Positions 4,621-27,244 of a DNA stretch of 56,065 bases are shown here, in pieces. The DNA lies in contig MKSU01000017.1 in the NCBI GenBank assembly GCA_001897375.1, forward strand, positions 201,761-257,825, written 5' to 3'. Source of the stretch: Sphingomonas sp. 67-36 (lineage in GTDB: Bacteria; Pseudomonadota; Alphaproteobacteria; Sphingomonadales; Sphingomonadaceae). Below the pieces are notes generated by a model. It saw only the letters and a list, made by a program, of their open reading frames with translations, ran no database searches and was not told the origin of the DNA. The position numbers and the translations under genes are program-made. How positions within the stretch are numbered: the stretch's first letter is position 1; each line of letters starts with the position of its first letter.

Positions 4621-4636
4621 AGTTAGTATCCGAAGC
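4621..4636. promoter_or_regulatory. Operator-like palindrome 1 (TTAG-N4-CGAA)
   Basis: AGTTAGTATCCGAAGC lies in the 175-bp divergent region between the MarR (start 4515) and the DUF3237 gene (start 4691). It matches the recurring 16-bp element ACTTAG-N4-CTAAGT with a degenerate right half-site. It is one of ten such sites in the cluster. Confidence 0.55.
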
Positions 4637-4690
4637 AATATCGCCCGGCCATCGCTTTTTATGGCGGGGCCGGATCAAGGAGAGCGACCC

Positions 4691-5179
4691 ATGACCCGCA
4701 ACATCCCGATGCGCGAACCGCGCTTCGCCTATCTCTGTTCCTATCGCGCGGAATTCACCGAGCCGCAGCAGATGGTCGGCCGGGGCCATTTCGGCACGCG
4801 GATGATCGCGGCGCTGACCGGCGGGACGCTGACCGGGGAGCGGCTTTCGGGCCGCGTCATGCCGAGTGGCGGCGACTGGGCGACGATCGACGATCGCGGC
4901 GTGCTGCGGCTCGATGCGCGCGTCACGCTGGAAACCGATGACGGGGCGCTGATCTACGTCTCCTATCGCGGCGTGTTGCGGCCGATGGAGAAGGTGCGCG
5001 AGTTCACGCGGCGCGGCGGCCCGAAGACGGCGGAGGAGCACGGGCAGGTCTATTTCCGCACCGCCCCGGTCTTCGAGACGGGGCATCCCGACTATCAATG
5101 GCTCAACGATATCGTCACGGTCGGCATCGGCGCCTCGGTGGGCGGGGCGGTGGAATATGACGTTTACGAGCTGTTGTGA
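4691..5179 (+). CDS. DUF3237 domain protein (copy 1)
   Basis: 162 aa, cytoplasmic (no signal or membrane segment). It fits the DUF3237 family: an N-terminal beta-strand region (FAYLCSYRAEF), then GTRMIAALTGGTLTGERLSGRVMPSGGDWATIDDRGVLRLDARVTLETDDGALIYVSYRG, and a C-terminal QVYFRTAPVFETGHPDYQWLNDIVTVG. No biochemical role is firmly assigned to this family. The start at 4691 is set by AAGGAG seven bases upstream; an in-frame extension to 4514 would overlap the MarR start. A second copy at 16404 sits in the same regulon, also next to a TonB receptor gene, which hints at a step in the same pathway. Confidence 0.85.
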   Translation: MTRNIPMREPRFAYLCSYRAEFTEPQQMVGRGHFGTRMIAALTGGTLTGERLSGRVMPSGGDWATIDDRGVLRLDARVTLETDDGALIYVSYRGVLRPMEKVREFTRRGGPKTAEEHGQVYFRTAPVFETGHPDYQWLNDIVTVGIGASVGGAVEYDVYELL

Positions 5180-5195
5180 CGCCGCTGCGACGAAC

Positions 5196-5211
5196 TGTTA
5201 GATTCCTAATT
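5196..5211. promoter_or_regulatory. Operator-like palindrome 2 (TTAG-N4-CTAA)
   Basis: TGTTAGATTCCTAATT lies between the DUF3237 stop (5179) and the monooxygenase start (5293). The inner TTAG/CTAA half-sites are perfect. Confidence 0.6.
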
Positions 5212-5292
5212 GAATTTAGGCAGGCAACCTGACAATATGTCTCCAAGCAAGGAGTCGCCCCGCGTGAGCGAGGGCGTTGTCAGGAGAGCCCG

Positions 5293-6543
5293 ATGTCCAA
5301 GCCGCAGACGGTCCAGCCGTTCATCCCCGCCAATGACGATTTCCTGACGCGCGGCGAGCTTGCCGCGCTCACGCCGGCCGAGCTGATCCGCCGCACCACG
5401 GCGCTGAAGCCGATGCTGGCGGCGCATGCGGCGGAATGCGAGCGGCTGCGCCATCCCATTCCCGCCGTGTGGAACGAGATCCGCAAGACCGGCTGCTTCT
5501 ATCACTTCATCCCGAAGAAATATGGCGGGCTGGAATTCGACGCGGACAGCTTCATCGACGCGATGATGCCGCTGAGCGAGGGTTGCCCCTCGACCGGCTG
5601 GGTGGCGGCCTTCTGCGTCGAGCATAACTGGATGCTCACGCAATTCCCGGAGGAATTCCAGGACGAGATATTCGGCACGCGCGACGGCGATCGCGTTCCG
5701 TATGTCATCGCCCCCGGCGCCACCGCCCCGCCGGGAAAAGCGGTGGCGGTCGACGGCGGCTACCGCATCAGCGGGCGCTGGAAATGGGGCACCGGGGTGA
5801 TGCACTCCGATTGGGTGCTGGTCGCCTGCGCGATCGTCGACGGCCCGGAGAATGTCGTGCTGTTCTGCGCGCTGCCGACCGAGCAGGTGACCGTGCTCGA
5901 CACCTGGCACATCGACGGCATGGAGGGTACCGGCAGCCACGACCTGCTGATCGAGGACGCCTTCATCCCCGCGCATCGCACGATGGACATGGCGGAGATG
6001 CGCGCCGGCACCGCGCATGGTTCGCGGCTGTACGACAATCCGATCTATCGTCAGCCGATGCTGCCGTTCCTCGGCGTGACGGCGGCGATCTCCGGTGTCG
6101 CGGCGGCGCGCGCCGCGACCGCGCTGTTCCGCGACCAACTTGCCGAACGCGTGGTGCACGGCACCAACATCACCCAGTCCGAAAAGCCCGCCGCGCAGAT
6201 GCGCCTCGCCAACGCCAGCGTGATGGCGCGCACCGCGGAACTGCTGCTGCGCGATGCGATCAACACCAACATCGCGCTGGCCCGGCCGGAGCAGCGCGCC
6301 GATTTCGAGCAGCGCTCGCGGATGCGGCTCGAGATCGCGCAGGCGATGGAACTGTGCCGTCACGCGGTCATGATGGTGGCCGAGGCGAGCGGCGCCAGCT
6401 CGCACCTGCGCAGCAATCCGATGCAGCGCTATCTGCGCGACGTGAACGTGATGTCGAACCACATCGTTTACGACAAGGACGGCGCGGCCGAGCTGCACGG
6501 TCGCGCGCTGATCGGCCTGCCGCCCAACGCGCTGACCTTCTAG
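5293..6543 (+). CDS. Flavin-dependent monooxygenase, HsaA/HpaB-C2-like (acyl-CoA dehydrogenase fold)
   Basis: 416 aa with the acyl-CoA dehydrogenase fold but belonging to the group D reduced-flavin monooxygenases (HsaA, p-hydroxyphenylacetate hydroxylase C2, DszC-like). Visible marks are GCPSTGWVAAF in the N-terminal domain, YRISGRWKWGTGVMHSDWVLVAC in the beta domain, and a C-terminal EASGASSHLRSNPMQRYLRDVNVMSNH typical of the hydroxylases. Such enzymes need FMNH2/FADH2 from a separate reductase; the FMN reductase at 26634-27212 carries the same operator element and is the obvious partner. AGGAG precedes the ATG. Likely role: hydroxylation of an aromatic or polycyclic substrate; the exact substrate is unknown. 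Confidence 0.88.
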   Translation: MSKPQTVQPFIPANDDFLTRGELAALTPAELIRRTTALKPMLAAHAAECERLRHPIPAVWNEIRKTGCFYHFIPKKYGGLEFDADSFIDAMMPLSEGCPSTGWVAAFCVEHNWMLTQFPEEFQDEIFGTRDGDRVPYVIAPGATAPPGKAVAVDGGYRISGRWKWGTGVMHSDWVLVACAIVDGPENVVLFCALPTEQVTVLDTWHIDGMEGTGSHDLLIEDAFIPAHRTMDMAEMRAGTAHGSRLYDNPIYRQPMLPFLGVTAAISGVAAARAATALFRDQLAERVVHGTNITQSEKPAAQMRLANASVMARTAELLLRDAINTNIALARPEQRADFEQRSRMRLEIAQAMELCRHAVMMVAEASGASSHLRSNPMQRYLRDVNVMSNHIVYDKDGAAELHGRALIGLPPNALTF

Positions 6544-6562: not shown

Positions 6563-6578
6563 AATTAGAATGCTAACT
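6563..6578. promoter_or_regulatory. Operator-like palindrome 3 (TTAGAATGCTAA)
   Basis: AATTAGAATGCTAACT lies 87 bp before the TonB receptor start. Its 12-bp core TTAGAATGCTAA is identical to the best copy at 26589-26604. Confidence 0.7.
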
Positions 6579-6664: not shown

Positions 6665-8911
6665 GTGAAGCTATTCAGAAATCACCGCATGGGGTTGCTG
6701 CTCGGGGCGGCGTTGCCGCTGGTGGCCGCATCCGCCGGCACCGCCGTCGCGCAGGACACGGGAGCCGGGGAAACGGCGACCCAGCAGACCGCCGCGACCG
6801 GCAACGACATCATCGTCACGGCGACGCGCCGGCCGCAGACCCTGCTTGACGTGCCGCTTTCGGTGGCGGTGGTTTCCGGCGATTCGCTGGCGAAGATGGG
6901 CACGCGGCAATTCAACGATCTTCAGGGCAGCGTCCCCAACCTCCAGATCGACCAGACCAACGGCAATTTCGTCATCAACATGCGCGGCCTTGGTTCGGGC
7001 GGCGGCAATCTGGCGTTCGAGCAATCGGTCGGCTTCTTCGTCGACGGCGTCTATTCGGGCCGCTCGCGCTCGCTGCAGACCGCGATGATGGACGTCGCGC
7101 GGGTCGAGGTGGTGCGCGGGCCGCAGGGTGCATTGTTCGGCAAGAACACCGACGCCGGCGCGATCAGCGTCATCACCGCCGCGCCGACCCGCGATTTCGA
7201 GGGCCGCGTCAGCGCGGGCTATGAATTCGAGAATCAGGGCTGGAACGCCGAGGGCTATCTCTCCGGCCCGATCACCGACAACCTCTCCGCCCGCTTCAGC
7301 GCGCAGGGCGGCCACGCCGGCGGCTATATGTGGAACCGCGCGACGAAGACCGACGACAACAGCAACGACTATCTCGGCCTTCGCGGGCAATTGCTGTTCG
7401 AGCCGATGCAAGGCATGTCGGCCAAGCTGAAGGTCGAATACGGCAAGAACAATTACAACGGCAACAACCTCGCCTATAACGGGCTGGGGACGAGTGACGT
7501 TGCCAACGCGATCCGTGCGATCGACGCGCCTTATGGCGGCGCGATCGAGACGCCGAGCTTCACGCGCATCCAGTCGTCACCTTATGGTCGGGGCTTCTCG
7601 CGCACGGAGAATTGGAACGTCACGCTCACGACCGATACCGATCTGGGCGGCGGCGTGAAGCTGACGACGATCACCGGCTATCAGCATATCAAGGCGCGGA
7701 CCAACACCGATATCGATGTCAGTCCGCTCACGTTGGTCGACAACCTGCACACCGAGAGCACGACGCAATTGTCGGAGGAGGCGCGGGTCTCCGCCTCGAT
7801 CGGCAAGCTGTCGCTGATCGCCGGGCTGCAATATTATTATGCGCAGTCGCATATCGTGCAGGGTGTTTACTGGAACAATCCGGGACTCGCGCTGCCGCTG
7901 TTCGTCGGCAATTCCATCCTGCCGTTCGATCAGAAGAGCGAATCCATCTCGCCGTTCCTGGCCGGCAATCTGGAGATACTGCCGGGGCTGACGATCGACG
8001 GCAGCGTTCGCTACAGCGACGAGACGAAGCAGGCGCGGATGCAGCAACTGCCTGGCGGCCCATCGGCATTCCTGCCCTATGACATCCGCGGCCGGCGGCA
8101 CGAGAAATTGTGGGATTACTCGGGTAAGGTGAGCTACAAGTTCAACCAGCGCGGGCAGATCTATGTCAGCTATGCCACTGGCAGCAAGGGCGGCGGCTTC
8201 GTCGCGAACGACACCCAGCTTGGCAGAACCGGTAAGTATCAGTTCGATCCCGAGCGCGCGCGTTCGTGGGAAGCGGGCCTCAAGCTGCGCGGCGAGGGCG
8301 GACTCTACGACCTCAATCTTGCGGTGTTCAACACCAACTTCGACAATCTCCAGGTCTCGTCGTTCAACGGCGTGAACTTCGTTACCGGCAATGCCGCGAA
8401 GGTGCGGTCGCGCGGCGTGGAACTGGAGGGCGACCTCCGGCCGGTTTCGTTCTTCAGCGTCGGCGGGAACGTCGCGTTGCTGGACGCGAAGTATCAAAGC
8501 TATCTGGGGCCGTGCATTTATAACGCAAGCTGCCCACTGGGCTATTCGGACCTCAGTGGCTATCGCCTGACGCGTGCGCCGAAGTGGAAGTGGACCGCTT
8601 ACGCGCAGGTCGATACCCCGCTGAGCGACGCGCTTCAGTTCAGCGCGCGCGGGCAGGTCAATTACACCGGCCTCACCAATTATCAGGACACGCAGAATCC
8701 GGCGACGATGATGCCTGCCTATACCACCGTCGACGCGCGCGTCGCGGTGACGAACAAGGCGCAGGGCTGGGATGTCGCGGTGGTCGGGCGCAACCTCACC
8801 AACGCCATAAGCTGGAGCCAGGCGTTCGGCCTTCCGGAGATCAGCGGCGCGACAGGCGTCTTCATCAATCCGGGGCGGACGATCACGCTGCAGGTTTCCA
8901 AGAACTTCTGA
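6665..8911 (+). CDS. TonB-dependent receptor (cluster receptor 1)
   Basis: Outer-membrane active-transport barrel, 748 aa. It has a signal peptide ending AVAQ, a TonB-box-like stretch NDIIVTATRR, a plug domain (VPLSVAVVSGD... to DVARVEVVRGPQGALFGKNTDAGAISVIT) and a barrel ending in an aromatic residue (QVSKNF), as expected for outer-membrane insertion. It starts at GTG with AGGAGGAGGA 4 bases upstream; a two-codon ATG-CCG-TGA overlaps that start at 6660-6668. It follows the monooxygenase and carries its own operator copy at 6563-6578. A strong terminator follows. It presumably imports the substrate of the surrounding pathway. Confidence 0.93.
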   Translation: MKLFRNHRMGLLLGAALPLVAASAGTAVAQDTGAGETATQQTAATGNDIIVTATRRPQTLLDVPLSVAVVSGDSLAKMGTRQFNDLQGSVPNLQIDQTNGNFVINMRGLGSGGGNLAFEQSVGFFVDGVYSGRSRSLQTAMMDVARVEVVRGPQGALFGKNTDAGAISVITAAPTRDFEGRVSAGYEFENQGWNAEGYLSGPITDNLSARFSAQGGHAGGYMWNRATKTDDNSNDYLGLRGQLLFEPMQGMSAKLKVEYGKNNYNGNNLAYNGLGTSDVANAIRAIDAPYGGAIETPSFTRIQSSPYGRGFSRTENWNVTLTTDTDLGGGVKLTTITGYQHIKARTNTDIDVSPLTLVDNLHTESTTQLSEEARVSASIGKLSLIAGLQYYYAQSHIVQGVYWNNPGLALPLFVGNSILPFDQKSESISPFLAGNLEILPGLTIDGSVRYSDETKQARMQQLPGGPSAFLPYDIRGRRHEKLWDYSGKVSYKFNQRGQIYVSYATGSKGGGFVANDTQLGRTGKYQFDPERARSWEAGLKLRGEGGLYDLNLAVFNTNFDNLQVSSFNGVNFVTGNAAKVRSRGVELEGDLRPVSFFSVGGNVALLDAKYQSYLGPCIYNASCPLGYSDLSGYRLTRAPKWKWTAYAQVDTPLSDALQFSARGQVNYTGLTNYQDTQNPATMMPAYTTVDARVAVTNKAQGWDVAVVGRNLTNAISWSQAFGLPEISGATGVFINPGRTITLQVSKNF

Positions 8912-8989: not shown

Positions 8990-10726
8990 TCAGCTCGTCC
9001 GGTTCGTCACCTTGTATTGCCCCTTGTAGAGCGCGCCGTCGTCCACGCCGACTTCGCGCGCGATCAGGTCGTTGGTCATCTTGCTGAGCCGCAGGATCAG
9101 CGCGCGGTTCTTGTCGCGGTTGGCCGGGCTGGCGAGATTGACGATCTCGTCGGGGTCGCGGAGCGTGTCATACAGTTCCAGATCGTTGAGGCGCAGCAGC
9201 ATCTCCCAGCTCGTCGGGATATGATGCTGGTCGGGCGCGAAATAGCGCGCGAACTTGTAGCGGCCGTCGAACGCGCCGCGATACAGCCGGCGCAGCGCGA
9301 TGTCGGGCGCGGGTAGCGGCTTCACATTCTCCACCCCCGGCGGCACGTCCGGCTGGTTCCAGCCATAAGCGACTGCATAGTTGAGCAGTGATCCCTGCCG
9401 GTCGCGCTCGGTGCGTGCATCGGGCTTGAAGGCGGCGGGGGAAAGGTCGTGCCCCTTGAGCTGCGGATGGCGCGTCGTTCGCGTCGCCGCATCGACACCG
9501 GCGAGGCTCAGCACCGTCGGCGCGAGGTCCAGCGTCGTGCCGAGCGCGGCGGTCTGCTGCCCCTTCAGGCCTTGTGGATGCGCGATGACGAACGGAACGC
9601 CGATGTCCTCCTTATAGACCGTGCCCGCCTTCTGGCGCAGGCCGTGCGCGCCGCCGCGCTCGCCATGGTCGGAGGTGTAGATGACGATCGTGTCCTCGAT
9701 CTGCCCGCTTTCCTCCAGCGCGCGCATCACCGTCGCGACGTGGCGGTCGACGTCGAGGATGCAGTTGAAATAATAATTCTGGAAACGCTGCCACGCCGCC
9801 TCGTCGGCATGATCGAGCTTGCCGTAGAACGCCCATGAGGCCGCCCGGATCGCGGCATGGGCGTGGGGCTTGGTGGAAAGATCGTCCGCATAGAAGCTCT
9901 TGGGCAACGGCGCCTTCCAGTCGGTTTCATAGACCGGATGGCCGGGCGCGGGGAACAGGGGCGCGATCAGGTTGGGCCGGGCGCGCGTCTTCTCGCCGTC
10001 GCCGCGCGCGTCGAAGAACATGATGTCGTGCGGGTTGACGAAATTGACCGCCATGAACCACGGCTTGTCGCCGGCCTTGCCCGCGTCGAACGCCTCCAGC
10101 ATGTTGACGGCCTCGGCGGCGGTGGTGCCGTCGTCCATGAAGCCCTGCCACGTCAGGCCGACGCGCTCGCCGTTGAAATTGTAATCGGCGAAGCCGAACG
10201 GCTCGAGCAGGTTGTCGCCGCGCGGATATTCGATCTTGCGCTCCGAGACCTGCGGCAACTCGATATCCGAAAGGTGCCACTTGCCCTTGTAGGCGGTGTA
10301 ATAGCCCGCCTCGCGCAGCATATGGCCGATCGTCGGCAGGTCCTTGCGCAGCTCCGGGAAGGGCTGGCTGTTCGGGTTGAGATAGACGCCGTTCTGCTGC
10401 GTGTGCTGGCCGGTGTACATCACCGCCCGCGACGGGCCGCACGGGTTGGTGTTGATGAGGTAATTGTCGAAGGAGACGCCGCGGCGGCGCACCATGTCCT
10501 GCCCCGGCAGCGGCACCGTCTTCGGCACATCGGCCCAGGAGCGCTGCTGGTCGGTGACGATCAGCAGGATGTTGTAGCGCCCGTCGGTGCGGCGCTCGCG
10601 GCGCGGGCGCCCGGCCGGCGCGGGGGCGGCTTCCGCCGGCTTCGTCATCGATGCGGTCGCGGCGACGGCCGCCGCGCCGCCCGCGCCCGCCAGCAGCGCG
10701 CGGCGGCTGACATTGTTGTTGCCCAT
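8990..10726 (-). CDS. Sulfatase with Tat signal peptide
   Basis: Hydrolyses sulfate esters, 578 aa, exported by the Tat pathway (VSRRALLAGAGGAAAVAA near the N-terminus). Type I sulfatase features are the maturation motif C-x-P-S-R as NPCGPSR (Cys96, the residue oxidised to formylglycine), metal-site residues IVTDQQ and YTSDHG, and GKWHL. The ATG at 10726 was chosen for its GGAGGAGAGG ribosome site and Tat signal; longer frames are arginine-rich noise. It lies 77 bp downstream of the MetE-like gene on the same strand and probably shares its transcript. A sulfated substrate, or a sulfate-ester intermediate outside the cytoplasm, is implied. No maturase is visible in the window. Confidence 0.92.
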   Translation of the reverse strand: MGNNNVSRRALLAGAGGAAAVAATASMTKPAEAAPAPAGRPRRERRTDGRYNILLIVTDQQRSWADVPKTVPLPGQDMVRRRGVSFDNYLINTNPCGPSRAVMYTGQHTQQNGVYLNPNSQPFPELRKDLPTIGHMLREAGYYTAYKGKWHLSDIELPQVSERKIEYPRGDNLLEPFGFADYNFNGERVGLTWQGFMDDGTTAAEAVNMLEAFDAGKAGDKPWFMAVNFVNPHDIMFFDARGDGEKTRARPNLIAPLFPAPGHPVYETDWKAPLPKSFYADDLSTKPHAHAAIRAASWAFYGKLDHADEAAWQRFQNYYFNCILDVDRHVATVMRALEESGQIEDTIVIYTSDHGERGGAHGLRQKAGTVYKEDIGVPFVIAHPQGLKGQQTAALGTTLDLAPTVLSLAGVDAATRTTRHPQLKGHDLSPAAFKPDARTERDRQGSLLNYAVAYGWNQPDVPPGVENVKPLPAPDIALRRLYRGAFDGRYKFARYFAPDQHHIPTSWEMLLRLNDLELYDTLRDPDEIVNLASPANRDKNRALILRLSKMTNDLIAREVGVDDGALYKGQYKVTNRTS

Positions 10727-10803
10727 GAGCCTCTCCTCCATATCCGGCTCCCCGGCCGTCCGCCGGCCGGGGAGGAACCACCTCGTCCGCAATCGCGCGC
10801 GGG

Positions 10804-11853
10804 TCAGCCCGCGCCAAGCTCCTTGCGAACGATCCGCGTGCCCTCGACCATCGCGGCGAGCTTGGCGAAGGCCACCTCGCGCGAATGGTATTTCATGCCG
10901 CAATCGGGCGCGATCCACAGTCGGTCGGCGGATACATGGCGCAGCGCTTCGCGAATGCGCGACGCGACCAGTTCCGCCGGCTCGATCTCATTGTGCGACA
11001 GATCGAGCACGCCGTACATGATGATCTTGTCGGGCAGCTCGGCGAGGATCGACGGGTCCAGCCCCGGCTGCGCCGCCTCGACAGAGATGACGTCGATGCG
11101 CGAGCGGTTCAGCTCGGTCAGGAAGTCATAGGCCTTGGGCTTGGTCACCTGGTTGCCGTGCACCAGCGCATAGCCGAAGCAGATGTGCAGTGCGGTGGTG
11201 CCGGTCACGCCGTCCAGCGCGCGATCGATCGCTGCGAGCGCGTACTCACGCGCGTCGGTCGCCCGCGCTTGCAGATACGGCTCATCGAGCTGCACCACGT
11301 CCACCCCGGCGGCGAAGAGATCCCTGATCTCGGCGTTCACCGCGTCGGCATAGTCCATCGCGAGGTCGGCGTCGGTCTGGTAATAATCGTTCTGCGCCTG
11401 CTTGGTCATCGTGAACGGGCCGGGCAGGGTGAGCTTCACCGGCTTCGACGAATGGCGCTTGAGGAACTCGGCGTCCTGCACCTCGATCCCGCCGATGCGG
11501 CGGATCGGGCCGGCGACGCGCGGCGCGGGGTTGGGCTTGCCGGTGCGGTCCATCGCCACGCCGGGATTGTCGATGTCGATCCCGCTCAGCGCGTTGGCGA
11601 GGCGATTGGAATAGCTCTCGCGCCGCATCTCGCCGTCGCCGACGATGTCGATTCCGGCCAGCTCCTGATCGCGGATGGCGACGAGGGTCGCGGCTTCCTG
11701 CGCGTCGGCCAGCCATGGCTCGGGGATGCGCCACAATTCCTGCGCGCGGGTGCGCGGCGGAAGGCTCGCCTTCAGCCGCTCGCGGTCGATCAGCCAGTCG
11801 GGCTGGGGATAGCTGCCCACGATCGTCGTCGGCAGGAGGATGTCGTTGGCCAT
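10804..11853 (-). CDS. Core-MetE-like methyltransferase (C-terminal methionine synthase domain only)
   Basis: 349 aa corresponding to the catalytic C-terminal domain of cobalamin-independent methionine synthase; the N-terminal half of full MetE is absent. The likely zinc ligands are all present: His and Cys in LHICFGY, Glu in SVEAAQ, and Cys in APDCGMKYH. The folate/substrate region LTLPGPFTMTKQA and QLDEPYLQ are recognisable. Stand-alone core-MetE proteins transfer methyl groups to or from thiols. Here the gene sits in a catabolic operon behind an operator palindrome (11885-11900), so a role in disposing of a methyl group released from the substrate is plausible but unproven. AAGGGG precedes the ATG. 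Confidence 0.85.
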   Translation of the reverse strand: MANDILLPTTIVGSYPQPDWLIDRERLKASLPPRTRAQELWRIPEPWLADAQEAATLVAIRDQELAGIDIVGDGEMRRESYSNRLANALSGIDIDNPGVAMDRTGKPNPAPRVAGPIRRIGGIEVQDAEFLKRHSSKPVKLTLPGPFTMTKQAQNDYYQTDADLAMDYADAVNAEIRDLFAAGVDVVQLDEPYLQARATDAREYALAAIDRALDGVTGTTALHICFGYALVHGNQVTKPKAYDFLTELNRSRIDVISVEAAQPGLDPSILAELPDKIIMYGVLDLSHNEIEPAELVASRIREALRHVSADRLWIAPDCGMKYHSREVAFAKLAAMVEGTRIVRKELGAG

Positions 11854-11884: not shown

Positions 11885-11900
11885 ACTTAGCAATATAAGT
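11885..11900. promoter_or_regulatory. Operator-like palindrome 4 (ACTTA-N6-TAAGT)
   Basis: ACTTAGCAATATAAGT begins 32 bp before the MetE-like start codon. The outer arms ACTTA/TAAGT are a perfect inverted repeat at the same spacing as in the copy at 26589. Confidence 0.65.
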
Positions 11901-11957: not shown

Positions 11958-12578
11958 TTACTTGGCGGGCGCCAGTTCGGCGACGTCGTTCTGGGCGAGC
12001 GCCTTCTGGACGATCATGCCTTCCTTCTTGATGCCGTCGGCGGTCACCGGATCGTGCGCCACGTCGGCGTCGGTGAACTCCTTGGTCCACGCCGCGAACT
12101 CCAGGCAGACGCCGTCGGGATCGAAGAAATAGACCGAGCGGACGAACACGTCGTCGTGCATGTGATCGGCGGTCTGAGTCTCCGAATTGTCGTGGTTGAG
12201 GATCTTGGTGACCTCGATCCCCTTGGACTTCAGCCGGTCGTAATATTCGTCGAACTTCTCGGCCGGCACGTTGAACGCGATATGGTTCATCGAGCCATGC
12301 GCGGACATGAAATTGCCCAGCGTCGGCAGCGCGGCCGGTGCGGAGATGCCCGGATGCGCTTCCGGCGCGCCGGAGAACCAGAAGAAGGCGAGGCTGTCGC
12401 CATTGCCCATGTCGAAGAAGAAATGCTGCCCGCGATTGCCCGGCAGGTCGATCGTCTTGACCAGCGGCATGCCGAGCACGTCGCGGTAGAATTCAACCGT
12501 CCTGGCCATGTCCTTGCAGACCAGCGCCAGATGGTTGACGCCCTTGAATTCGAACTGGGTGTTGGTGGCCGGCATCAT
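11958..12578 (-). CDS. VOC family protein (glyoxalase / extradiol dioxygenase fold)
   Basis: 206 aa, one full VOC module pair. A metal triad is visible: His in GVNHLALVC, His in SMNHIAFNV, and Glu in VCLEFAAW. The FDPDG stretch before the Glu is typical of the fold. The fold serves ring-cleaving dioxygenases, glyoxalases and epimerases, and the sequence alone does not decide among them. The pathway context (flavin hydroxylase, CMD, SnoaL) favours action on an aromatic or oxidised ring intermediate. Two adjacent ATGs follow AAGAGGAG; the first was used. It is followed by a hairpin at 11920-11949. Confidence 0.82.
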   Translation of the reverse strand: MMPATNTQFEFKGVNHLALVCKDMARTVEFYRDVLGMPLVKTIDLPGNRGQHFFFDMGNGDSLAFFWFSGAPEAHPGISAPAALPTLGNFMSAHGSMNHIAFNVPAEKFDEYYDRLKSKGIEVTKILNHDNSETQTADHMHDDVFVRSVYFFDPDGVCLEFAAWTKEFTDADVAHDPVTADGIKKEGMIVQKALAQNDVAELAPAK

Positions 12579-12713: not shown

Positions 12714-12746
12714 GCGATAATCGTCAAATATATTGACGGTTATCGC
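12714..12746. promoter_or_regulatory. 33-bp near-perfect palindrome (CGTCAA-N5-TTGACG core)
   Basis: Arms GCGATAATCGTCAA and TTGACGGTTATCGC (13 of 14 pairing) surround ATATA. It overlaps the stop codon of the CMD gene (12740-12742) and sits 135 bp upstream of the VOC start. Its AT-rich centre and 6-5-6 layout match TGTCAA-N5-TTGACA at 13882-13898, suggesting a second operator family rather than a terminator. Confidence 0.55.
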
Positions 12747-13786: not shown

Positions 13787-13860
13787 CCTCTCTCTCCTGT
13801 CGCTTCGATTCACCGGCGCGGCGATGATTGTCGCGTCCCGCCGGTCTATCTGCGCGCAAT

Positions 13861-13876
13861 GCTTAGATAGGTAAGG
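13861..13876. promoter_or_regulatory. Operator-like palindrome 5 (TTAG-N4-GTAA)
   Basis: GCTTAGATAGGTAAGG lies 75 bp before the SnoaL-like start. One arm is degenerate. Confidence 0.5.
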
Positions 13877-13881
13877 ATGAC

Positions 13882-13898
13882 TGTCAACGGGTTTGACA
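13882..13898. promoter_or_regulatory. Inverted repeat TGTCAA-N5-TTGACA
   Basis: Perfect 6-bp arms with a 5-bp spacer (CGGGT), in the same layout as the core of the palindrome at 12714-12746. It lies upstream of the SnoaL-like gene, next to palindrome 5. The right arm could also serve as a -35 box on the plus strand. Confidence 0.5.
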
Positions 13899-19796: not shown

Positions 19797-20797
19797 CAAT
19801 GCTCCTTGGGCCAATCGGCGATGAGTTGGTCGATAGCGGGCGTGTCGCCGGCGAGCAGCGCCAGCGCGCGGGCGCGCACGACCTGCTTCGCGGCATCGTC
19901 GAGATAGGGCGCGGGCGACTTGCCCTCGACGCGCGCGAGCAGCAGCGCGGCGACCAGCGCCCCGGCGCGAGCAGCGAGCGCCGCGCGCGGCTCCCATGTC
20001 ACCCCGGCGAGATAGTCGGCGACGAACGCCGCCGCCGCTTGGTTCAGCGCCCCCGCGTGCGGCGCCAGCCAGATCGTCTTGAGCAGCAGGTGCGTGGTGC
20101 AGAAGGCAAGGTCGAACGCCGGATCGCCATAGACCGCGCATTCCGCGTCGAGGAACACGCCGCCCTGCGGCCCGCACAGGATGTTCTTCGGGCTGACGTC
20201 GCCGTGGACCAGCGCCATGCGCCGGCCTTCCAGATCGTCGGCGATGGCATCGAGCCGCGCCGCCACCTCCGGCCGGTTCGCCGCGACATAGCGCAGGAAC
20301 GGCGAGATGCGCAGCGCTTCGAACAGGTCCATGCTGTCGAAGTCGGCGGCGGTCCGCGCATCGTCGGCGGTCGCGGCATGGATGCGGGCGAGATCGCGCC
20401 CCAGCCCGCGCGCGAAGGCGGGATCGACCCGGCCGGCGATCAGCTCGTCGCGCCATACCGGATGCGCGTCCGGCTCCAGATAGGCGAGCGCGAAGAGGTG
20501 CTCGTCGGGCACCTCCGCCACCACTTCCGGCACCAGCCGCGCGTCGATCCGCCCGGCATAGCGCAGCCAGCGCACCTCGTTCTCGGCGCGCTCGACCGGG
20601 GCGAGCCATTCCGCCGCGACGCGCAATTGCGGCAGCGCGCGCTTGACGACGACCGGCGCCTCGTCGCCGATCCGCGCCAGCCACACGTCGCACGACACCC
20701 CGCCGGAAAGCGGGGTGAGCGTGACCGGCTGGCCGTCGCGGGCGATCCCCGCGCGGCGCAGCGATGTGATGGTGGCGGCCTCGCCCGTGTCGGTCAC
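19796..20797 (-). CDS. Phosphotransferase of the aminoglycoside phosphotransferase (APH) family
   Basis: Small-molecule kinase, about 333 aa. The Brenner motif LVHGDVSPKNIL (His198, Asp200, Asn) and the metal-binding VFLDAECAVYGDPAFDLAF are clear. An N-terminal GGVSCDVWLAR nucleotide loop and VVVKRAL Lys are also visible. APH-fold kinases phosphorylate hydroxyls of antibiotics, choline, homoserine, methylthioribose and other metabolites. With an enolase-like gene immediately downstream (TGATG overlap), a catabolic kinase is far likelier than resistance. Start: GTG at 20797 after AAGGAG, just past the stop of the preceding hydrolase; ATG 20833 is possible but lacks a ribosome site. Confidence 0.83.
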   Translation of the reverse strand: MTDTGEAATITSLRRAGIARDGQPVTLTPLSGGVSCDVWLARIGDEAPVVVKRALPQLRVAAEWLAPVERAENEVRWLRYAGRIDARLVPEVVAEVPDEHLFALAYLEPDAHPVWRDELIAGRVDPAFARGLGRDLARIHAATADDARTAADFDSMDLFEALRISPFLRYVAANRPEVAARLDAIADDLEGRRMALVHGDVSPKNILCGPQGGVFLDAECAVYGDPAFDLAFCTTHLLLKTIWLAPHAGALNQAAAAFVADYLAGVTWEPRAALAARAGALVAALLLARVEGKSPAPYLDDAAKQVVRARALALLAGDTPAIDQLIADWPKEH

Positions 20798-20811
20798 GCT
20801 CCTTGCCCCGT

Positions 20812-21939
20812 TCAGCTCTTGGCTTCGATCCATGCCGCCATCAGGTCGGCGGCGGCGTTGCGCTCCTCGATCGAATCCTCGAAATAATGCGCGCCGGGGA
20901 TCAGCTCGATCTGCTTGTCGCCCGATCCGATATTGTCGAAGATCTTGCGCGCATCGCTCGGGAACACGCCGGTGTCCGCCGTGCCCTGCACCACCAGCGC
21001 CGGAGTGTCGAACTTGGCGAGATGCGGCGCGCCCTGGCACGGCGAGGTTTCGAGGCTCCACATGTTGAGCCACGTCTTGATCGAATTGACGCGCCCGATC
21101 GAAGGGGTGCGGTTCGCGGTTGCGGGATCACCGCGATAACACCAGCGCGGCTTGCGCGTCGACGGATCGAGCGCCGGGTCCATGCAGCGCAGGTCGCCCC
21201 ATACGCGGAACAGCGGGAACAGGCGGTCCGGCACGCCGGCATCGTTGAGCCGCTTCAGCTCCGCCTTGGCCCAGTCGGTGATGCGCTGGTTGCGCGCGCG
21301 CTGCGCGGCGCGATAGCGGGTGACGAATTCGTCCGAATAGGGCGGGGCGTTCTCCGCGCTGAACGGATCGAGCGAGGGATCGGTCGGCACCGGATCGTTC
21401 TCGTCGACCACCGAGGCGTCGAGCCAGTCGGTCAGCACCTCGGGCCGCCCCTGGTGCGCGTTGAGCGAGATGTAGAGATCGGCCTTGATGAGGTCGTTGT
21501 ATGCCTCAAGCCCCGCGCCGCTCAACTCGCCGCCCAAGGTCGGCTTGATCGCTTCCGCCTGATAGGCGCCCATCAGCGACCCGCCGCCGGAATTGCCGAG
21601 GATCACGATCCGCTCGACACCCGCTTCCTCCTTCAGCCAGCGCATGCCCACGCCGATGTCGAGGATCGCGTGGTGCAGCAGGAACTGGTCCTCGAACCCG
21701 CGATAGCGCGTGTTCCAGCCGAGGAAGCCATAGCCGCGCCGCGCGAAATAGGGCGCGATATAATGTTCGGCGAAATCGACGTTGTAATGGGTCGCGATCA
21801 CCGCCGTCTTGGGCTTCTTGCCCGCCGGGGTCCAGTAGATGCCCTGGCAGGGGTGGCCGCCGGCCTGGATGCGCGGCGCGGTCGGGGAAACCTTGCCGAT
21901 GAACTGTGTGTCCAGACCGTTGGTGTCGCGCGGGTCCAT
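20812..21939 (-). CDS. Alpha/beta hydrolase (esterase/lactonase-like)
   Basis: 375 aa, no signal peptide. The elbow GNSGGGSLMGAYQ supplies the Ser nucleophile; Asp in VVQGTADTGVF and His in IPGAHYFE complete the triad. The N-terminal half reads like large catabolic hydrolases (TAVIATHYNVDFAEHYIAPYFARRGYGFLGWNTRYRG). Substrate is unknown; an ester, lactone or thioester of the pathway is likely. It is the first gene after operator 7 and lies 14 bp before the kinase, so it heads the five-gene operon. GAGAGGATAGGAA precedes the ATG. Confidence 0.85.
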   Translation of the reverse strand: MDPRDTNGLDTQFIGKVSPTAPRIQAGGHPCQGIYWTPAGKKPKTAVIATHYNVDFAEHYIAPYFARRGYGFLGWNTRYRGFEDQFLLHHAILDIGVGMRWLKEEAGVERIVILGNSGGGSLMGAYQAEAIKPTLGGELSGAGLEAYNDLIKADLYISLNAHQGRPEVLTDWLDASVVDENDPVPTDPSLDPFSAENAPPYSDEFVTRYRAAQRARNQRITDWAKAELKRLNDAGVPDRLFPLFRVWGDLRCMDPALDPSTRKPRWCYRGDPATANRTPSIGRVNSIKTWLNMWSLETSPCQGAPHLAKFDTPALVVQGTADTGVFPSDARKIFDNIGSGDKQIELIPGAHYFEDSIEERNAAADLMAAWIEAKS

Positions 21940-21958: not shown

Positions 21959-21974
21959 GCTTAGCTAGCGAAGA
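21959..21974. promoter_or_regulatory. Operator-like palindrome 7 (TTAG-N4-CGAA)
   Basis: GCTTAGCTAGCGAAGA lies 20 bp before the hydrolase start and thus ahead of the kinase/enolase-like operon. The right arm is degenerate in the same way as site 1. Confidence 0.5.
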
Positions 21975-22006: not shown

Positions 22007-22909
22007 TCACGTCAGGGCGGGTGGAAAAGCCGGGGCGCAACGCACCTTGCCGGACAAATCGCGCCCGATCACGTCGGCGAGCCACGTCGCCGCCTCGATC
22101 GCCCGCGCGCGGTCGTAACCGGTGGCGATGCCCGAGCGGTCGAGCAGATAAAGCACGTCTTCCGTCGCGACGTTGCCGGACGCGCCGGGCGCGAACGGGC
22201 AGCCGCCGAGTCCGCCGAGCGCGGCGTCGATCACCGTCGCGCCGGCCTGCACCGCCGCCCAGACATTGGCGATCGCGGTGTTGCGCGTGTCGTGGAAATG
22301 GACGCGCACCGGGATCGGCGCGATCGCCTCGACCACGCGCGTCACCGCCTCGCCCACCTGCCCGGGCACCGCGACGCCGATCGTATCGGCCAGCCCCACC
22401 TCGCGCGGGCCGGCGTCGGCGGCGCGCTTGGCCATCTCCACCACGCGGGCGAGCGGCACCTCGCCCTCGAACGGGCAGCCGAAGGCGGTGGCGATGGTGA
22501 TCTGCGCGCCGCGTCCCGCCGCCTTCGCCAGCGCGACCGTCTCCCGCGCGATCTCCAGCGATTCGGCGCTGGTCTGCCCCTGGTTGCGCATCGCGAACGT
22601 GTCGCTGGCGACGCACACCGCGCCAAGCTCGTCGATCCGCGTCGCCAATGCCCGCTCCGCGCCGCGCCGGTTGAGCACCAATGCGATGAACGTCACCTCG
22701 TCACGCTCCGGCAACCCCTGCGCCACCGCGTCGGCATCGGCCATCTGCGGCACGCGGCGCGGATTGACGAAGCTCGTCACCTCCAGCCGGCGCGCGCCGG
22801 CGGCGATGGCGCGCCCGATCAGCTCCAGCTTCTGCGCGGTCGAGACGAGCCGGGCCTCGTTCTGCAGCCCGTCGCGCGGGGCGACCTCGACGATTTCGAC
22901 GGAAGGCAA
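22007..22909 (-). CDS. HMG-CoA lyase family protein
   Basis: TIM-barrel aldolase that cleaves 3-hydroxy-3-methylacyl-CoA-type thioesters, 300 aa. It has the N-terminal EVAPRDGLQNE (metal and catalytic Arg), VRVHFHDTRNTA (metal His pair) and the signature GLGGCPFAPGASGN with the active-site Cys. The start is a TTG at 22909 preceded by AAAGGAG at 6-base spacing; this gives the normal family length, while the longer frame to 23005 would cross the operator. It is divergent from MarR copy 2. With the CoA-transferase and LeuCD genes nearby it could cleave a citramalyl-CoA-like or HMG-CoA-like intermediate. Confidence 0.88.
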   Translation of the reverse strand: MPSVEIVEVAPRDGLQNEARLVSTAQKLELIGRAIAAGARRLEVTSFVNPRRVPQMADADAVAQGLPERDEVTFIALVLNRRGAERALATRIDELGAVCVASDTFAMRNQGQTSAESLEIARETVALAKAAGRGAQITIATAFGCPFEGEVPLARVVEMAKRAADAGPREVGLADTIGVAVPGQVGEAVTRVVEAIAPIPVRVHFHDTRNTAIANVWAAVQAGATVIDAALGGLGGCPFAPGASGNVATEDVLYLLDRSGIATGYDRARAIEAATWLADVIGRDLSGKVRCAPAFPPALT

Positions 22910-22928
22910 AAGTTGCTCCTTTCGAAAA

Positions 22929-22944
22929 AGATAGTATTCTAAGT
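22929..22944. promoter_or_regulatory. Operator-like palindrome 8 (ATAG-N4-CTAA)
   Basis: AGATAGTATTCTAAGT lies in the 87-bp divergent region between the HMG-CoA lyase gene (22909) and MarR copy 2 (22997). The right arm is perfect. The place is suited to autoregulation. Confidence 0.6.
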
Positions 22945-22996
22945 AAATCGCGTCCGCAAGCCGGTCGACAGCCGCCGGCGCGGCTTGCGTTGCGCG

Positions 22997-23443
22997 ATGC
23001 AACACCGTTTAAGCGGGTTCATGCGGTCGATCGAGTTGATCATTCACCTGTTCCAACGATTCTGCTGGCTCGACGAGGGGCTGCAGGCGCGCGTCCATGA
23101 CAAGGGCTGGCCGGACATCAGCCGCGCGCAATCGATGGTGATGGTCAATATCGTCAGCGGCGTCACCCGCCCGTCGGAAATCGCGCGCCGCATGGGCGTC
23201 TCGCGTCAGGCGATCCACAGCACGATCGCGCAGATGGTCGAGAAGGGTGTCGTCACGCTGGAGGACGATGCCGAGGACGCGCGCCACAAACGGCTGCTGC
23301 TCACCCCGTTCGGGGAGCGGATGCGTGGTGATGCACAGGCCGCCATGGCCGAGCTTACCGCGCAGATCGCCGGGAAGGTGGGGCAGGAACGGTTCGACCT
23401 GTTGCTCGAAACGCTGGCGGCGGACTGGGGCAGGCCGACATGA
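22997..23443 (+). CDS. MarR family transcriptional regulator (copy 2)
   Basis: 148 aa winged-helix regulator: ISRAQSMVMVNIVSGVTRPSEIARRMGVSRQAIHSTIAQMVEKGVVTLEDDAEDARHKRLLLT. It is a paralogue of the MarR at 3985-4515, sharing spacing, helix sequence and a C-terminal DWG, so both may read the same DNA site. The start at 22997 is the first ATG; 23021 (MRSIEL) is an alternative, and neither has a strong ribosome site. Its stop overlaps the leuD-like start (ATGA), and it is divergent from the HMG-CoA lyase gene across operator 8. Confidence 0.88.
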   Translation: MQHRLSGFMRSIELIIHLFQRFCWLDEGLQARVHDKGWPDISRAQSMVMVNIVSGVTRPSEIARRMGVSRQAIHSTIAQMVEKGVVTLEDDAEDARHKRLLLTPFGERMRGDAQAAMAELTAQIAGKVGQERFDLLLETLAADWGRPT

Positions 23444-23991
23444 AGCCATGGACGATCGTCACCTCGCGCGCGGCGCTGCTGCCGGACGCTGATATCGACA
23501 CCGACAAGATCCTGCCGGCGCGCTACATGAAGGGGCTGGACCGGCGCGGGCTGGGCGCGCACCTGTTCGCCGACATGCGCGCGATCGACGCGCGGTTCGC
23601 GATCGACCCGGCGGCGGCGATCCTGGTGACGGGGCGCAATTTCGGCTCCGGCTCGTCGCGCGAACATGCGGTATGGGCGCTGGACGATCACGGCATCCGC
23701 TGCGTCGTCGCGCCGAGCTTCGGCGGCATCTTCAGCGGCAATGCGGCGACCAATGGTCTGCTGCTCGTAACTCCCGCGCCGGACGATTATGCCGCGCTGG
23801 TCGCGCGGCTGGCGGAGACGCCGGACACGCCCGTCACCGTCAACCTGCGCGATTGCTCGATCACGGCCGGCGCGCTGCGCCTGGCCTTCACGATCGACCG
23901 CGACCTGCGCGAGGCGCTGCTGGCGGGGCTGGACGATATCGGCCGCACCTTGCGCCACGCCGGGGCGATCGCGGCGTTCGAGGAGCGGTAG
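23440..23991 (+). CDS. LeuD-type hydro-lyase small subunit
   Basis: Swivelling domain of an aconitase-superfamily dehydratase (3-isopropylmalate dehydratase small-subunit family), 183 aa. Motifs: DIDTDKILPARY, the loop GRNFGSGSSREHAVWAL (substrate-binding Ser), and GGIFSGNAATNGLL. It starts inside the MarR stop (4-base overlap) and ends 2 bp from the convergent large subunit, an odd layout because leuC and leuD normally share an operon. The catabolic context suggests hydration or dehydration of a substituted maleate/malate rather than leucine synthesis, but leucine synthesis cannot be excluded. Confidence 0.88.
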   Translation: MKPWTIVTSRAALLPDADIDTDKILPARYMKGLDRRGLGAHLFADMRAIDARFAIDPAAAILVTGRNFGSGSSREHAVWALDDHGIRCVVAPSFGGIFSGNAATNGLLLVTPAPDDYAALVARLAETPDTPVTVNLRDCSITAGALRLAFTIDRDLREALLAGLDDIGRTLRHAGAIAAFEER

Positions 23992-23993
23992 CC

Positions 23994-25397
23994 CTACAGG
24001 TCCGCGACGTCGGTGATGCGGCCGGCGATCGCCGCCGCCGCCGCCATCGCCGGGCTCATCAGATGGGTGCGCCCGCCGATGCCCTGGCGGTTCTCGAAAT
24101 TGCGGTTCGAGGTGGCGGCGCAACGCTCGCCCGGCGCGAGCCGGTCCGGGTTCATCCCCACGCACATCGAACAGCCCGGCTCGCGCCAGTCGAATCCCGC
24201 CGCGACGAAGATGTCCGCCAGCCCCTCGGCCTCCGCCTGCCGCCGCACCAGGCCCGAGCCGGGCACGACCATCGCGCGGACGTTCGCCGCCACGCGTCGC
24301 CCGCGCGCGACCTCGGCGGCGGCGCGCAGGTCCTCGATCCGGCTGTTGGTGCACGATCCGATGAAAACGCGGTCGATCGGCAGCCCGGCGATCGGCTGGC
24401 CCGCCGACAGCCCCATATAGCTGAGCGCGCGTTCCCGCGCCGCGCGGTCGAGCGCGTCGGCCGCGGCGCGCGGATCGGGAATCGCCTCGTCGATCGCGAT
24501 CACCTGCGACGGATTGGTGCCCCAGCTCACCATCGGGCGCAGCGCGTTGGCCGCCACCGTCGCCTCGCGATCGAACACCGCGTCGGGCGCGCTGGCGAGC
24601 GTGCGCCATTCGGCGACCCTGCGCGCCCATTCCTCGCCGCGTGGCGCGCCGGGGCGGCCGGCGAGATAGGCGAAGGTCGTCTCGTCCGGCGCGATCAGCG
24701 TGGCGCGCGCGCCCATCTCGACCGCGAGGTTGCACAGCGTCATGCGCCCTTCCATCGACAGCGCGCGCACCGCCGGCCCGGCGAACTCGATGACATGGCC
24801 CAGCCCGCCGTCCACCCCGATCGCGCGCAGGATGCCGAGCGCGAGATCCTTGGCGGAAAGATGCGCGGGCAGCGCGCCGGTGACGTTCACCCGCATCGCC
24901 TTCGGCTTGCGCAGCCGCAGCGTCTGCGTCGCCAGCACATGCTCGATCTGCGAGGTGCCGATGCCGAACGACAGCGCGCCGAACGCGCCGTGGGTGGAGG
25001 TGTGGCTGTCGCCGCAGACGATCGTCATGCCGGGATGGGTGCGGCCCTGTTCCGGCGCGACGACATGGACGATGCCGTTGCGCGGATCGCCCATGTCGAA
25101 CCGCTCGATCCCGTATCGCTCGCTGTTCTCGACCAGCCGGGCGAGCTGCGCGCGCGCCTCGGGATCGGCGACGGCCGCGATGCCCTGCTCCTGCGCCTCG
25201 GTCGGGACGTTATGATCGAACAGCGCCAGCGTCAGCGCCGGCTGGCGCACGGTGCGGCCGTGCGCCTCCAGCCCGGCGAAAGCCTGCGGCGAGGTGACTT
25301 CGTGCAGCAGGTGGAGATCGACGTAGAGCAATGTCTCGCCGCCGTCCTCCAGGATGCGGTGGCGATCCCAGACTAGGTCGAGCAGCGTGCCGGTCAC
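23994..25397 (-). CDS. LeuC-type hydro-lyase large subunit
   Basis: [4Fe-4S] large subunit of a LeuCD/dimethylmaleate-hydratase type enzyme, 467 aa. The cluster ligands appear in [13 protein letters not shown] (first Cys) and [14 protein letters not shown] (pair). [23 protein letters not shown] and [10 protein letters not shown] are family motifs. It is convergent with the small subunit (2-bp gap) and coupled to the CoA-transferase upstream on its own strand (ATGA overlap at 25394-25397). The tie to a CoA-transferase supports a role in making or using a hydroxydicarboxylate that is then activated to a CoA thioester. Confidence 0.9.
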
Positions 25398-26572
25398 ACG
25401 ATGCCGCGCTGCTTGAGGTCGGCGATCGCCGCCGCGTCATAGCCGGCCTCGCGCAGCAACGCCTCGGTATCCGCACCGACCGCGACCGGCGCGGGCGCGC
25501 GGACGCCGCCGGGCGTGCGCGAGAGGCGGGGGAACACGCCCTGCATCGGCAGCGCGCCGTGGCGCTCCGTCTCGACCGTGACGATCGCCTCGCGCGCGGC
25601 GAAATGCGGATCGGCCAGCATGTCGCGCGCCGCGAACATGCGCCCGGCCGGCACGGCATTGTCCTCCATCAGCTTCTCGACGGCGGCGATGCTCTGCCCG
25701 CGCGTCCAGTCCGCGATCATCCCGTCGAGCAGGTCCTGGTGCTGGCCGCGCGCATTGTGGGTGGCGAAGCGCGGGTCGTCGCCCAGCTCCGGTTGCCCCA
25801 TCGCGGTCGCCAGCCGGCGGAAGATCGCGTCCTGGTTGGCGGCGATCAGCAATTCGCCATCGCTGCACGGATAGACGTTCGACGGCGCGATGCCCTTCAG
25901 GATCGAGCCGGATCGCGCCCGGACATGGCCGGCGGCGGCATATTCGGGGACCAGCCCCTCCATCACCTGCAACACCGATTCGAACAGGCTGACGTCGACG
26001 ATCTGGCCGCGCCCGCTCCTCTCGCGTTCGTGCAGCGCGGCGAGCGCGCCGAGGCAGCCGTAAGTGCCGGCGAGGCTGTCGCCGATCGACACGCCGAGGC
26101 GCGAGGGCGGCCGGTCCGGCGTCCCCACCAGCGCGCGCCAGCCGCCCATCGCCTCGCCGATCCCGCCGAAGCCGGCGCGGGTGGAATAGGGGCCGGTCTG
26201 GCCGTAGCCGGAGACGCGCACCACGATCAGCCGGGGGTTGGCCGCGCACAGGTCAGCGGGGGAGAGGTTCCACTTCTCCAGCGTGCCAGGGCGGAAATTC
26301 TCGACCAGCACGTCGGCGCCGGCGATCAGGCGGCGTGCGATCTCCTGCCCCTCCGCGCTGCGCAGGTCGGCCGCGACCGACCGCTTGTTGCGCGCGATCA
26401 CCTCCCACCACACCGGCGGGTCGCCCGCGCCCCATTGCCGCATCGGATCGCCCGCTTCGGGCGGCTCGATCTTGACGACGGTCGCGCCGAGATCGCCGAA
26501 GAGCTGGGCGCAGAACGGCCCTGCGATCAGCTGCCCCAGCTCGACGACGCGAATGTCAGAAAGTGGTCCCAC
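25394..26572 (-). CDS. CaiB/BaiF family (class III) CoA-transferase
   Basis: Moves CoA between carboxylic acids, 392 aa. Family features: [35 protein letters not shown] at the N-terminus, [26 protein letters not shown], and the catalytic Asp165 in [13 protein letters not shown]. Likely acceptors are dicarboxylates, as in succinyl-CoA:citramalate or itaconate transferases (family knowledge). It starts at GTG behind the best operator copy (26589-26604) and is coupled to leuC. A CoA-transferase, LeuCD and an HMG-CoA-lyase-like enzyme together would activate and cleave a branched hydroxyacid. Confidence 0.9.
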
Positions 26573-26588
26573 GACGGTTCCCGATAAA

Positions 26589-26604
26589 ACTTAGAATGCT
26601 AAGT
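26589..26604. promoter_or_regulatory. Operator palindrome 9, best copy (ACTTAGAATGCTAAGT)
   Basis: Perfect inverted repeat; with flanks, AACTTAG and CTAAGTT surround AATG (26588-26605). It lies 17 bp upstream of the CoA-transferase start codon. It is used here as the reference for the ten-site family. Confidence 0.75.
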
Positions 26605-26633
26605 TATATGGTGCGGTGTGACGGTGCAAGACC

Positions 26634-27212
26634 CTATGCGCGCAGCCGGCCGGAGACCTCCACCAGCCGCCCGACCAGCCCGTCGAGGATTGCATTGGGC
26701 AGCGGCTCCGCCAGCGCGCCCTCGCCGGTGAAGGCGCGATCGGCGAGCGGAACGGCGAGCTGCTCCGGGATGACCATCATCTGCACCGTGCCCAGCACCT
26801 GGCGCAGATGGGCGAGCGCGCGCATCCCGCCGAACGGGCCGATCGAGGCGGCCATGATGCCGGCCGCCTTGCCGCGAAAGGCGGTGAGCGCGATCGCCGA
26901 TTCGCCGTCGCTCGGGCGGGAGGCCCAGTCGATCGCATTCTTGAGCAGGGTGGAGATCGAGCCGTTGTGCTCCGGCGTCGCGATCAGCAGGCCGTCGCAC
27001 GCCGCCAGCGTCGCCTTCAGCCGGCGCGCATCGGCCGGACAGTCCCGAAGCTCGAGATCCTGCGCGTAGACCGGCAGGTCGTAGGTGGAGAGATCGACCG
27101 GCACCGCCTCCGCGCCTGCCGCGCGAATGCGCTCCGCGCCCAGGGCCGCGAGCGCGCTGTTATGCGATCCGCGCCGCACGCTCCCCGAAATCACGGCAAT
27201 CCGAACCGTCAT
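26634..27212 (-). CDS. NAD(P)H-dependent FMN reductase
   Basis: Flavodoxin-fold reductase, 192 aa. The FMN phosphate loop is GSVRRGSHNSAL and the isoalloxazine loop is ATPEHNGSISTLLKNAIDW, followed by AFRGKAAGIMAAS. It most likely supplies reduced FMN to the group D monooxygenase at 5293-6543; both genes have a copy of the same operator. AAGGGG precedes the ATG. Other uses (quinone or azo reduction) are possible for the family. Confidence 0.88.
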   Translation of the reverse strand: MTVRIAVISGSVRRGSHNSALAALGAERIRAAGAEAVPVDLSTYDLPVYAQDLELRDCPADARRLKATLAACDGLLIATPEHNGSISTLLKNAIDWASRPSDGESAIALTAFRGKAAGIMAASIGPFGGMRALAHLRQVLGTVQMMVIPEQLAVPLADRAFTGEGALAEPLPNAILDGLVGRLVEVSGRLRA

Positions 27213-27228
27213 CGCTGACCCCTTGATA

Positions 27229-27244
27229 AATTAGCTATCTAAGG
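27229..27244. promoter_or_regulatory. Operator-like palindrome 10 (TTAG-N4-CTAA)
   Basis: AATTAGCTATCTAAGG lies 17 bp upstream of the FMN reductase start, the same distance as for the CoA-transferase. The core half-sites are perfect. Confidence 0.65.

Follow-up and report, generated by a model that had tools for sequence, protein, structure and literature searches.

In the sections of the reports cited here, DesR of Sphingobium SYK-6, a sphingomonad MarR repressor of aromatic (vanillate/syringate) catabolism, is described as acting on inverted repeats before several genes and as being released by substrates (PMC6888825). Saro_0803, a MarR-like protein of the sphingomonad Novosphingobium aromaticivorans (nov1), has an A/T-rich site near the −10 box and is released by the plant phenolic resveratrol (PMC10046596). 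CouR of Rhodococcus uses one inverted repeat common to several promoters of one pathway, an N5-spaced repeat lying over the −35 element (PMC4737184), and the consensus given for SlyA, a MarR-family protein of enterobacteria, is TTAGCAAGCTAA or TTAN6TAA (PMC5797941). Here we analyse a 56,065-nucleotide stretch (the window; G000:C17:201761-257825) of the 4,000,194-base (4.0 Mb) genome of Sphingomonas sp. 67-36, in which an earlier note had reported ten copies of a palindrome with the core TTAG-N4-CTAA, here called operator 1. Judged from sequence, the ten palindromes quite probably serve as operators for a single repressor of the MarR family, and the likeliest candidate is MarR3, one of three MarR proteins encoded in the same gene cluster.

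The ten palindromes are found where the earlier note had placed them. With one mismatch allowed, TTAGNNNNCTAA matches 11 places in the window, against a mean of 1.26 and a largest value of 5 in shuffles; ten are the places already noted (five perfect, five with one mismatch), and the eleventh, at 41244, lies outside the cluster. A matrix made from 89 sites inside the clusters of 14 relatives, with the window excluded, reads ACTTAGWATWCTAAGT; 11 more of the relatives' sites at up to one mismatch fell outside the spans set for it. The ten best positions of this matrix in the window are exactly the ten sites, at 26.4 to 11.8 bits, and the next best (9.9 bits) is within a receptor gene. At 10 bits or more, a Markov null gives a mean of 0.84 and a maximum of 3 positions, as against the 10 observed. 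The motif is no artefact of having been looked for, since a test of all reverse-palindromic 4-mer dyads with gaps of 0–12, which presupposes no motif, ranks TTAG-N4-CTAA first, both in the window's cluster (5 observed, 0.00 expected as printed) and in those of the 14 relatives (39 versus 0.04 expected). Genome-wide there are 60 forward operator 1 sites at up to one mismatch, 10 of them within 22.6 kb where 0.34 are expected. This corresponds to 0.44 sites per kb in the cluster and 0.0126 per kb in the rest of the genome (binomial P 2e-12); a like density in unrelated intergenic DNA, which the earlier note had named as the finding that would speak against a regulon, is thus rejected by the whole-genome count.

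All ten sites are intergenic, as the earlier note had held: with the gene starts chosen here none overlaps a gene, in a region (4516-27789) of which intergenic DNA makes up 8.7%. Three lie between neighbouring genes, namely MarR1 and DUF3237a (4621..4636, 17.8 bits), TonB receptor 2 and DUF3237b (16362..16377, 20.9 bits), and the HMG-CoA-lyase-like gene and MarR2 (22929..22944, 24.9 bits). The others precede the flavin monooxygenase gene (5196..5211, 19.6 bits), TonB receptor 1 (6563..6578, 24.5 bits), the MetE-like gene with the sulfatase (11885..11900, 18.7 bits), SnoaL–CMD (13861..13876, 13.1 bits), the hydrolase 2–kinase–enolase–hydrolase unit (21959..21974, 11.8 bits), CoA-transferase III–LeuC (26589..26604, 26.4 bits) and the FMN reductase (27229..27244, 20.3 bits). 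Coverage of nearly every transcription unit stands for most units, but the matrix scan of the window finds no strong TTAG site upstream of the glyoxalase-type gene (11958-12578) or of MarR3.

The sites are conserved together with the cluster. MarR3 matches at E≤1e-25 occur in 24 of 397 genomes of the family and are absent from the 10 other same-genus genomes listed; of 19 relatives matching at E≤1e-50, 14 have the cluster and the sites and 5 are without the cluster. Between genera the palindrome is 65–79% identical and its flanks 23–38% (nine promoter classes, at least 8 pairs each), and in two further classes of 2 pairs each the palindrome is 53 and 62% identical, figures that are favoured by the comparison having taken only sites of at least 11 bits. 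Genes heading transcription units mostly keep a site in relatives: MetE in 10/10, MarR2 in 12/12, DUF3237b in 9/10, FMN reductase in 10/12, LeuD in 8/9 and CoA-transferase in 5/6, and upstream of MarR3 10 of 14 relatives have a site scoring 19 bits or more. No site precedes genes internal to units (kinase 0/14, enolase 0/14, alpha/beta hydrolase 0/13, CMD 0/9). Presence is variable for hydrolase 2 (Hyd2; 5/15), LeuC (5/10), SnoaL (3/12), glyoxalase (3/11) and HMG-lyase (0/2), probably in part because gene order differs. The 15 genomes that have the cluster contain 58 strict sites (TTAGNWWNCTAA) in all, with none in G319, and 25 genomes without it contain 8; the latter were hand-picked rather than random (10 same-genus, 5 with an orphan MarR3, 5 with MarR1/2-like clusters and 5 others). 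Genome density, the relatives' matrix, conservation and the co-occurrence with MarR3 described below all support the proposal that these scattered genes form one regulon.

Which of the three MarR proteins reads operator 1 can be approached through the company the sites keep, and they track the presence of MarR3 in several genera and beyond the family. The set surveyed was the best 80 of 578 loci, with genera that include Sphingopyxis, Sphingomonas, Novosphingobium, Polymorphobacter, Sphingosinicella, Parasphingopyxis, Phenylobacterium, Hyphomonas and Henriciella; the 74 loci of at least 10 kb were counted, the 6 shorter ones were left out, and at least 9 of the 80, being the same contigs as matrix genomes, were kept in the count. 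MarR3 (at least 45%) is present in 64 of the 74, and all 64 carry a site of at least 15 bits, holding 269 sites versus 3.2 in the Markov null. The ten loci without MarR3 in the stretch divide into five with sites and five without, and in all five of the site-bearing ones MarR3 is found elsewhere in the genome (54–71%).

The strongest competing explanation is that the TTAG palindrome is read by one of the other two proteins, MarR1 or MarR2, or by the three jointly, and MarR2 indeed shares the neighbourhood in most relatives, besides having a site at its own gene in every one of the 12 cases above. The sites nonetheless persist where these proteins are missing: each of the 13 loci whose stretch contains MarR3 without MarR2/1 has a site scoring 15 bits or more, and the genomes G074 and G302, which have no MarR1/2 homologue genome-wide at E≤1e-6, hold 11 perfect TTAG sites and lack perfect GTCAA palindromes. 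The reverse holds in nine stretches of six genomes, in groups drawn up by the analyst, where MarR1/2-like clusters without MarR3 have 0 perfect TTAG sites and 12 perfect GTCAA palindromes. Loci with weaker MarR1/2-like genes (L058, L066, L067, L068 and L069, with a 44% MarR2 relative in L066) carry neither perfect palindrome. MarR1, MarR2 and MarR3 thus do not look equivalent, and we regard MarR1, MarR2 or a joint action of the three as an unlikely reader of operator 1. MarR1 had also been considered as a master regulator and was rejected; its search (17 of 298 genomes) mixed true relatives with motif-less sibling clusters, which turned attention to MarR3. Based on the co-occurrence of MarR3 and sites, the site-bearing genomes that lack MarR1/2 and the MarR3-less sibling stretches that lack sites, we assign the TTAG palindrome to MarR3 with fair confidence.

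The position of the sites fits operators that would overlap the core promoter. Across 86 oriented sites the palindrome ends a median of 37.5 bp before the start codon, and −35-like hexamers scoring at least 8 are found just upstream of it in 15 of 86, compared with 3 in the far control and 3 downstream. By our own reading of the window sequence, MetE, TonB receptor 1, the HMG-lyase-like gene and the CoA-transferase have a TTG-type −35 element and a 17-bp spacer, a layout that puts the palindrome over the spacer or the −10 element.

Several observations weigh against MarR3 as the repressor acting at these sites. Mean −35 scores differ only modestly (6.30 near, 5.70 far and 6.09 downstream). MarR3 itself lacks a strong site in the window, and three of the five site-less Hyd2 loci are from genomes that do have MarR3 (49–59%), the other two having none. 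In addition, G021, G085, G242, G277 and G351 have MarR3 relatives (60–77%) whose recognition segment has scarcely changed, but these genomes contain neither the cluster nor a strict site. An APH-type kinase gene adjoins the MarR3 relative in G085, G242 and G277, and the G277 and G351 genomes are 83% complete; these cluster-less genes may be leftovers after cluster loss. Such orphans would also fit a regulator outside the cluster, another MarR/SlyA-type protein, reading the sites with MarR3 as a fellow traveller, and a SlyA-type consensus could suit several MarR proteins. That the sites follow MarR3 across several genera and beyond the family nevertheless makes an outside regulator very improbable. 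Chance or AT-rich promoter composition, to which an AT-rich motif in intergenic DNA might point, can be dismissed almost entirely, as the intergenic DNA here is still 64% GC and the shuffles, the relatives' matrix, the dyad ranking and the between-genus conservation all argue against it.

A second palindrome, GTCAA-N5-TTGAC (operator 2), accompanies the first. The window has two perfect copies, one upstream of the glyoxalase-type gene (12723..12737), which is without operator 1, and one in the SnoaL promoter (13883..13897), its centre 21.5 bp from that of operator 1. Among 5-mer dyads, GTCAA-N5-TTGAC ranks highest in the sibling stretches (12 versus 0.16 expected), and the MarR3 clusters are likewise enriched for it (13 versus 0.08); it also occurs in L043, L046, L053, G252, G101, G284, G380 and G384. 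Perfect copies are present in 38 of 56 loci with MarR2/1 and in 6 of 18 with no MarR2/1 in the stretch. MarR2 is a possible reader of operator 2, with these six loci standing apart. At one mismatch the pattern is not selective by itself, since TGTCAANNNNNTTGACA is then found in 37 of 40 genomes, with 5–9 copies in each of five genomes with MarR1/2-like clusters and 8 in G003, which has no such gene.

Where the two operators lie within 60 bp of each other (25 pairs), their centres are 15.5 bp apart in 11 pairs, 21.5 bp in 8, the group to which the window's own pair belongs, and otherwise spaced in 6. Fixed spacings of this kind would suggest that both proteins bind side by side. However, most pairs spaced 15.5 bp apart come from a single promoter type (DUF3237b/receptor 2), and those spaced 21.5 bp apart seem to represent a single other type; many pairs are the same promoter type in different genomes and hence not independent, and the spacings may be inherited rather than selected. 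We therefore offer only tentatively, as somewhat short of an even chance, a nested and conserved two-MarR logic, in which MarR3 acts through TTAG-N4-CTAA on most promoters as well as on the MarR2 gene, MarR2 acts through GTCAA-N5-TTGAC on a subset, and side-by-side binding integrates two pathway signals.

These features suggest how the regulon might operate. By occupying the 16-bp site, with its consensus ACTTAGWATWCTAAGT, over the −10 element or the spacer, a MarR3 dimer would hold a unit off. A pathway compound would bind MarR3 and release it, and this would switch on the receptors together with the flavin monooxygenase, its reductase and the enzymes further down the pathway. MarR2, whose own promoter has operator 1, would probably read operator 2 at a subset of promoters and so provide a second checkpoint. 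Steric repression lifted by a ligand, as we infer it here, is what is reported for DesR, Saro_0803 and CouR.

The regulon probably reaches beyond the cluster. The 23-kb extent proposed in the earlier note is right for the cluster itself but incomplete, as five of the ten outside genome sites scored, among the matches listed for contigs up to number 20, reach 14.1–20.5 bits just upstream of genes. These five lie on other contigs of the same genome (L001, L002, L003, L012 and L013) and precede, as read from translations rather than a family search, genes for an O-methyltransferase, an ABM-type monooxygenase, an acyl-CoA synthetase, a TonB receptor and an amidase/receptor pair, all of them candidate distant members of the regulon. 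Homologues of the L002 receptor adjoin sites in L151, L152 and L159. Distant pieces of relatives' genomes keep sites beside CoA-transferase/HMG-lyase and DUF3237b/receptor genes (G122, G365, G324), monooxygenase genes (G201, G324) and LeuC/LeuD-like genes (G074); in 20 stretches a homologue (at least 40%) of a cluster gene or of the L002 receptor is beside the site in 9, further off in 2 and absent in 9. In a separate locus of the window's genome, L114 (G000:C32:5001-25000), paralogues of MarR3 (57%) and of a receptor (53%) lie close together at 9838-15047, and the receptor paralogue is preceded by palindromes resembling TTCG-N4-CGAA that score 12.4 and 12.2 bits. L114 is perhaps a diverged regulator–operator pair.

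The cluster spans 2813-27781, its gene families having been assigned with Pfam and NCBIfam profiles. It begins with genes for an acyl-CoA dehydrogenase (2813..3988, −) and MarR1 (3985..4515, −; PF12802, 33.1 bits at a cut-off of 27, start chosen), followed by DUF3237a (4692..5179, +; start chosen), an HsaA/XiaF-like flavin monooxygenase (5293..6543, +) and TonB-dependent receptor 1 (6665..8911, +). A long run on the minus strand comprises a sulfatase (8990..10918; longest frame), the MetE-like protein (10804..11853), a glyoxalase/dioxygenase-superfamily protein (11958..12578), a CMD-family protein (12740..13381), a SnoaL-like protein (13394..13813) and TonB-dependent receptor 2 (14019..16320; start approximate). 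DUF3237b (16398..16898, +) precedes the genes for an alpha/beta hydrolase, an enolase, an APH-type kinase and hydrolase 2 (16883..21939, −), transcribed from hydrolase 2 towards the alpha/beta hydrolase. Within 18498-21073 this enolase, a second one for the genome (475 bits), stands beside the APH-type kinase; the genome's other enolase, on contig C4, scores 688 bits. Next come the HMG-CoA-lyase-like gene (22007..22919, −; start chosen) and MarR2 (22985..23443, +; PF12802, 42.5 bits at a cut-off of 27; longest frame, the true start probably further in). LeuD-like (+) and LeuC-like (−) genes (23440..25397), CoA-transferase III (25394..26572, −), the FMN reductase (26634..27212, −) and MarR3 (27266..27781, −; PF01047, 42.6 bits at a cut-off of 24.6, with an inferred TTG start) complete the cluster, after which NagA-, SIS- and GntR-type genes follow in the window. 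For one cluster gene, the closest named relatives among the best 80 of 578 loci are Sphingomonas.

The gene content is consistent with catabolism of a compound that is perhaps a plant phenolic. PinX, a DUF3237 protein, is described as acting in pinoresinol catabolism, probably as a decarboxylase, and as resembling the phenylcoumaran decarboxylases PhcF and PhcG (PMC12607616). A link of the cluster's DUF3237 proteins to such PhcF/PhcG/PinX-type decarboxylases of lignin or lignan dimers, likened by family and not by sequence, hints at plant phenolics. LeuCD, the CoA-transferase and the HMG-lyase would together suit a route that cleaves a substituted malate, running opposite to leucine synthesis.

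With these results, scattered genes (receptors, flavin monooxygenase, second enolase with its kinase, and the LeuCD/HMG-lyase/CoA-transferase branch) become one predicted unit, which occurs in Phenylobacterium and Hyphomonas as well as in Sphingomonas, Sphingopyxis and Novosphingobium. A likely regulator can be named, the matrix can be used for finding further members, and the promoters could drive a reporter, the inducer of which would identify the substrate. We found no account of such a regulon in the open-access PMC literature, where absence is weak evidence. The portions considered of a Proteobacteria regulon survey have a MarR regulator, HmgS, and nothing like the present regulon (PMC5343134); PheR is given as IclR-type (PMC13273656), and another MarR motif is likened to that of SlyA (PMC8070244).

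Comparison with the described systems shows what is shared. MarR genes are encoded with their predicted targets, and an inverted repeat is common to several promoters of one pathway. The site is not of an unrecognized kind, as the earlier note had supposed: it is a SlyA/MarR consensus, the window sites conforming to TTAGCAAGCTAA and TTAN6TAA as published (PMC5797941) and sharing the TTAG-N4-CTAA type with SlyA. Judged by the SlyA model NF002926, however, MarR3 falls outside SlyA (38.1 bits, with the cut-off at 120), and its predicted targets here form one catabolic cluster. DesR differs in its 15-bp repeats (GTTTGTGTCACATAC type), which are unlike operator 1 and operator 2 (PMC6888825), and Saro_0803 in its repeat, GCAATA-TATTGC (PMC10046596), and in family, MarR1, MarR2 and MarR3 scoring 27.3, 27.7 and 36.2 bits against a cut-off of 200 on NF053777. 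Operator 2 is N5-spaced like the repeat of CouR, but the CouR box is ATTGA-N5-TCAAT (PMC4737184) rather than GTCAA-N5-TTGAC. Operator 1 is of a type already known, and it is the pairing of the two operators that could go beyond it.

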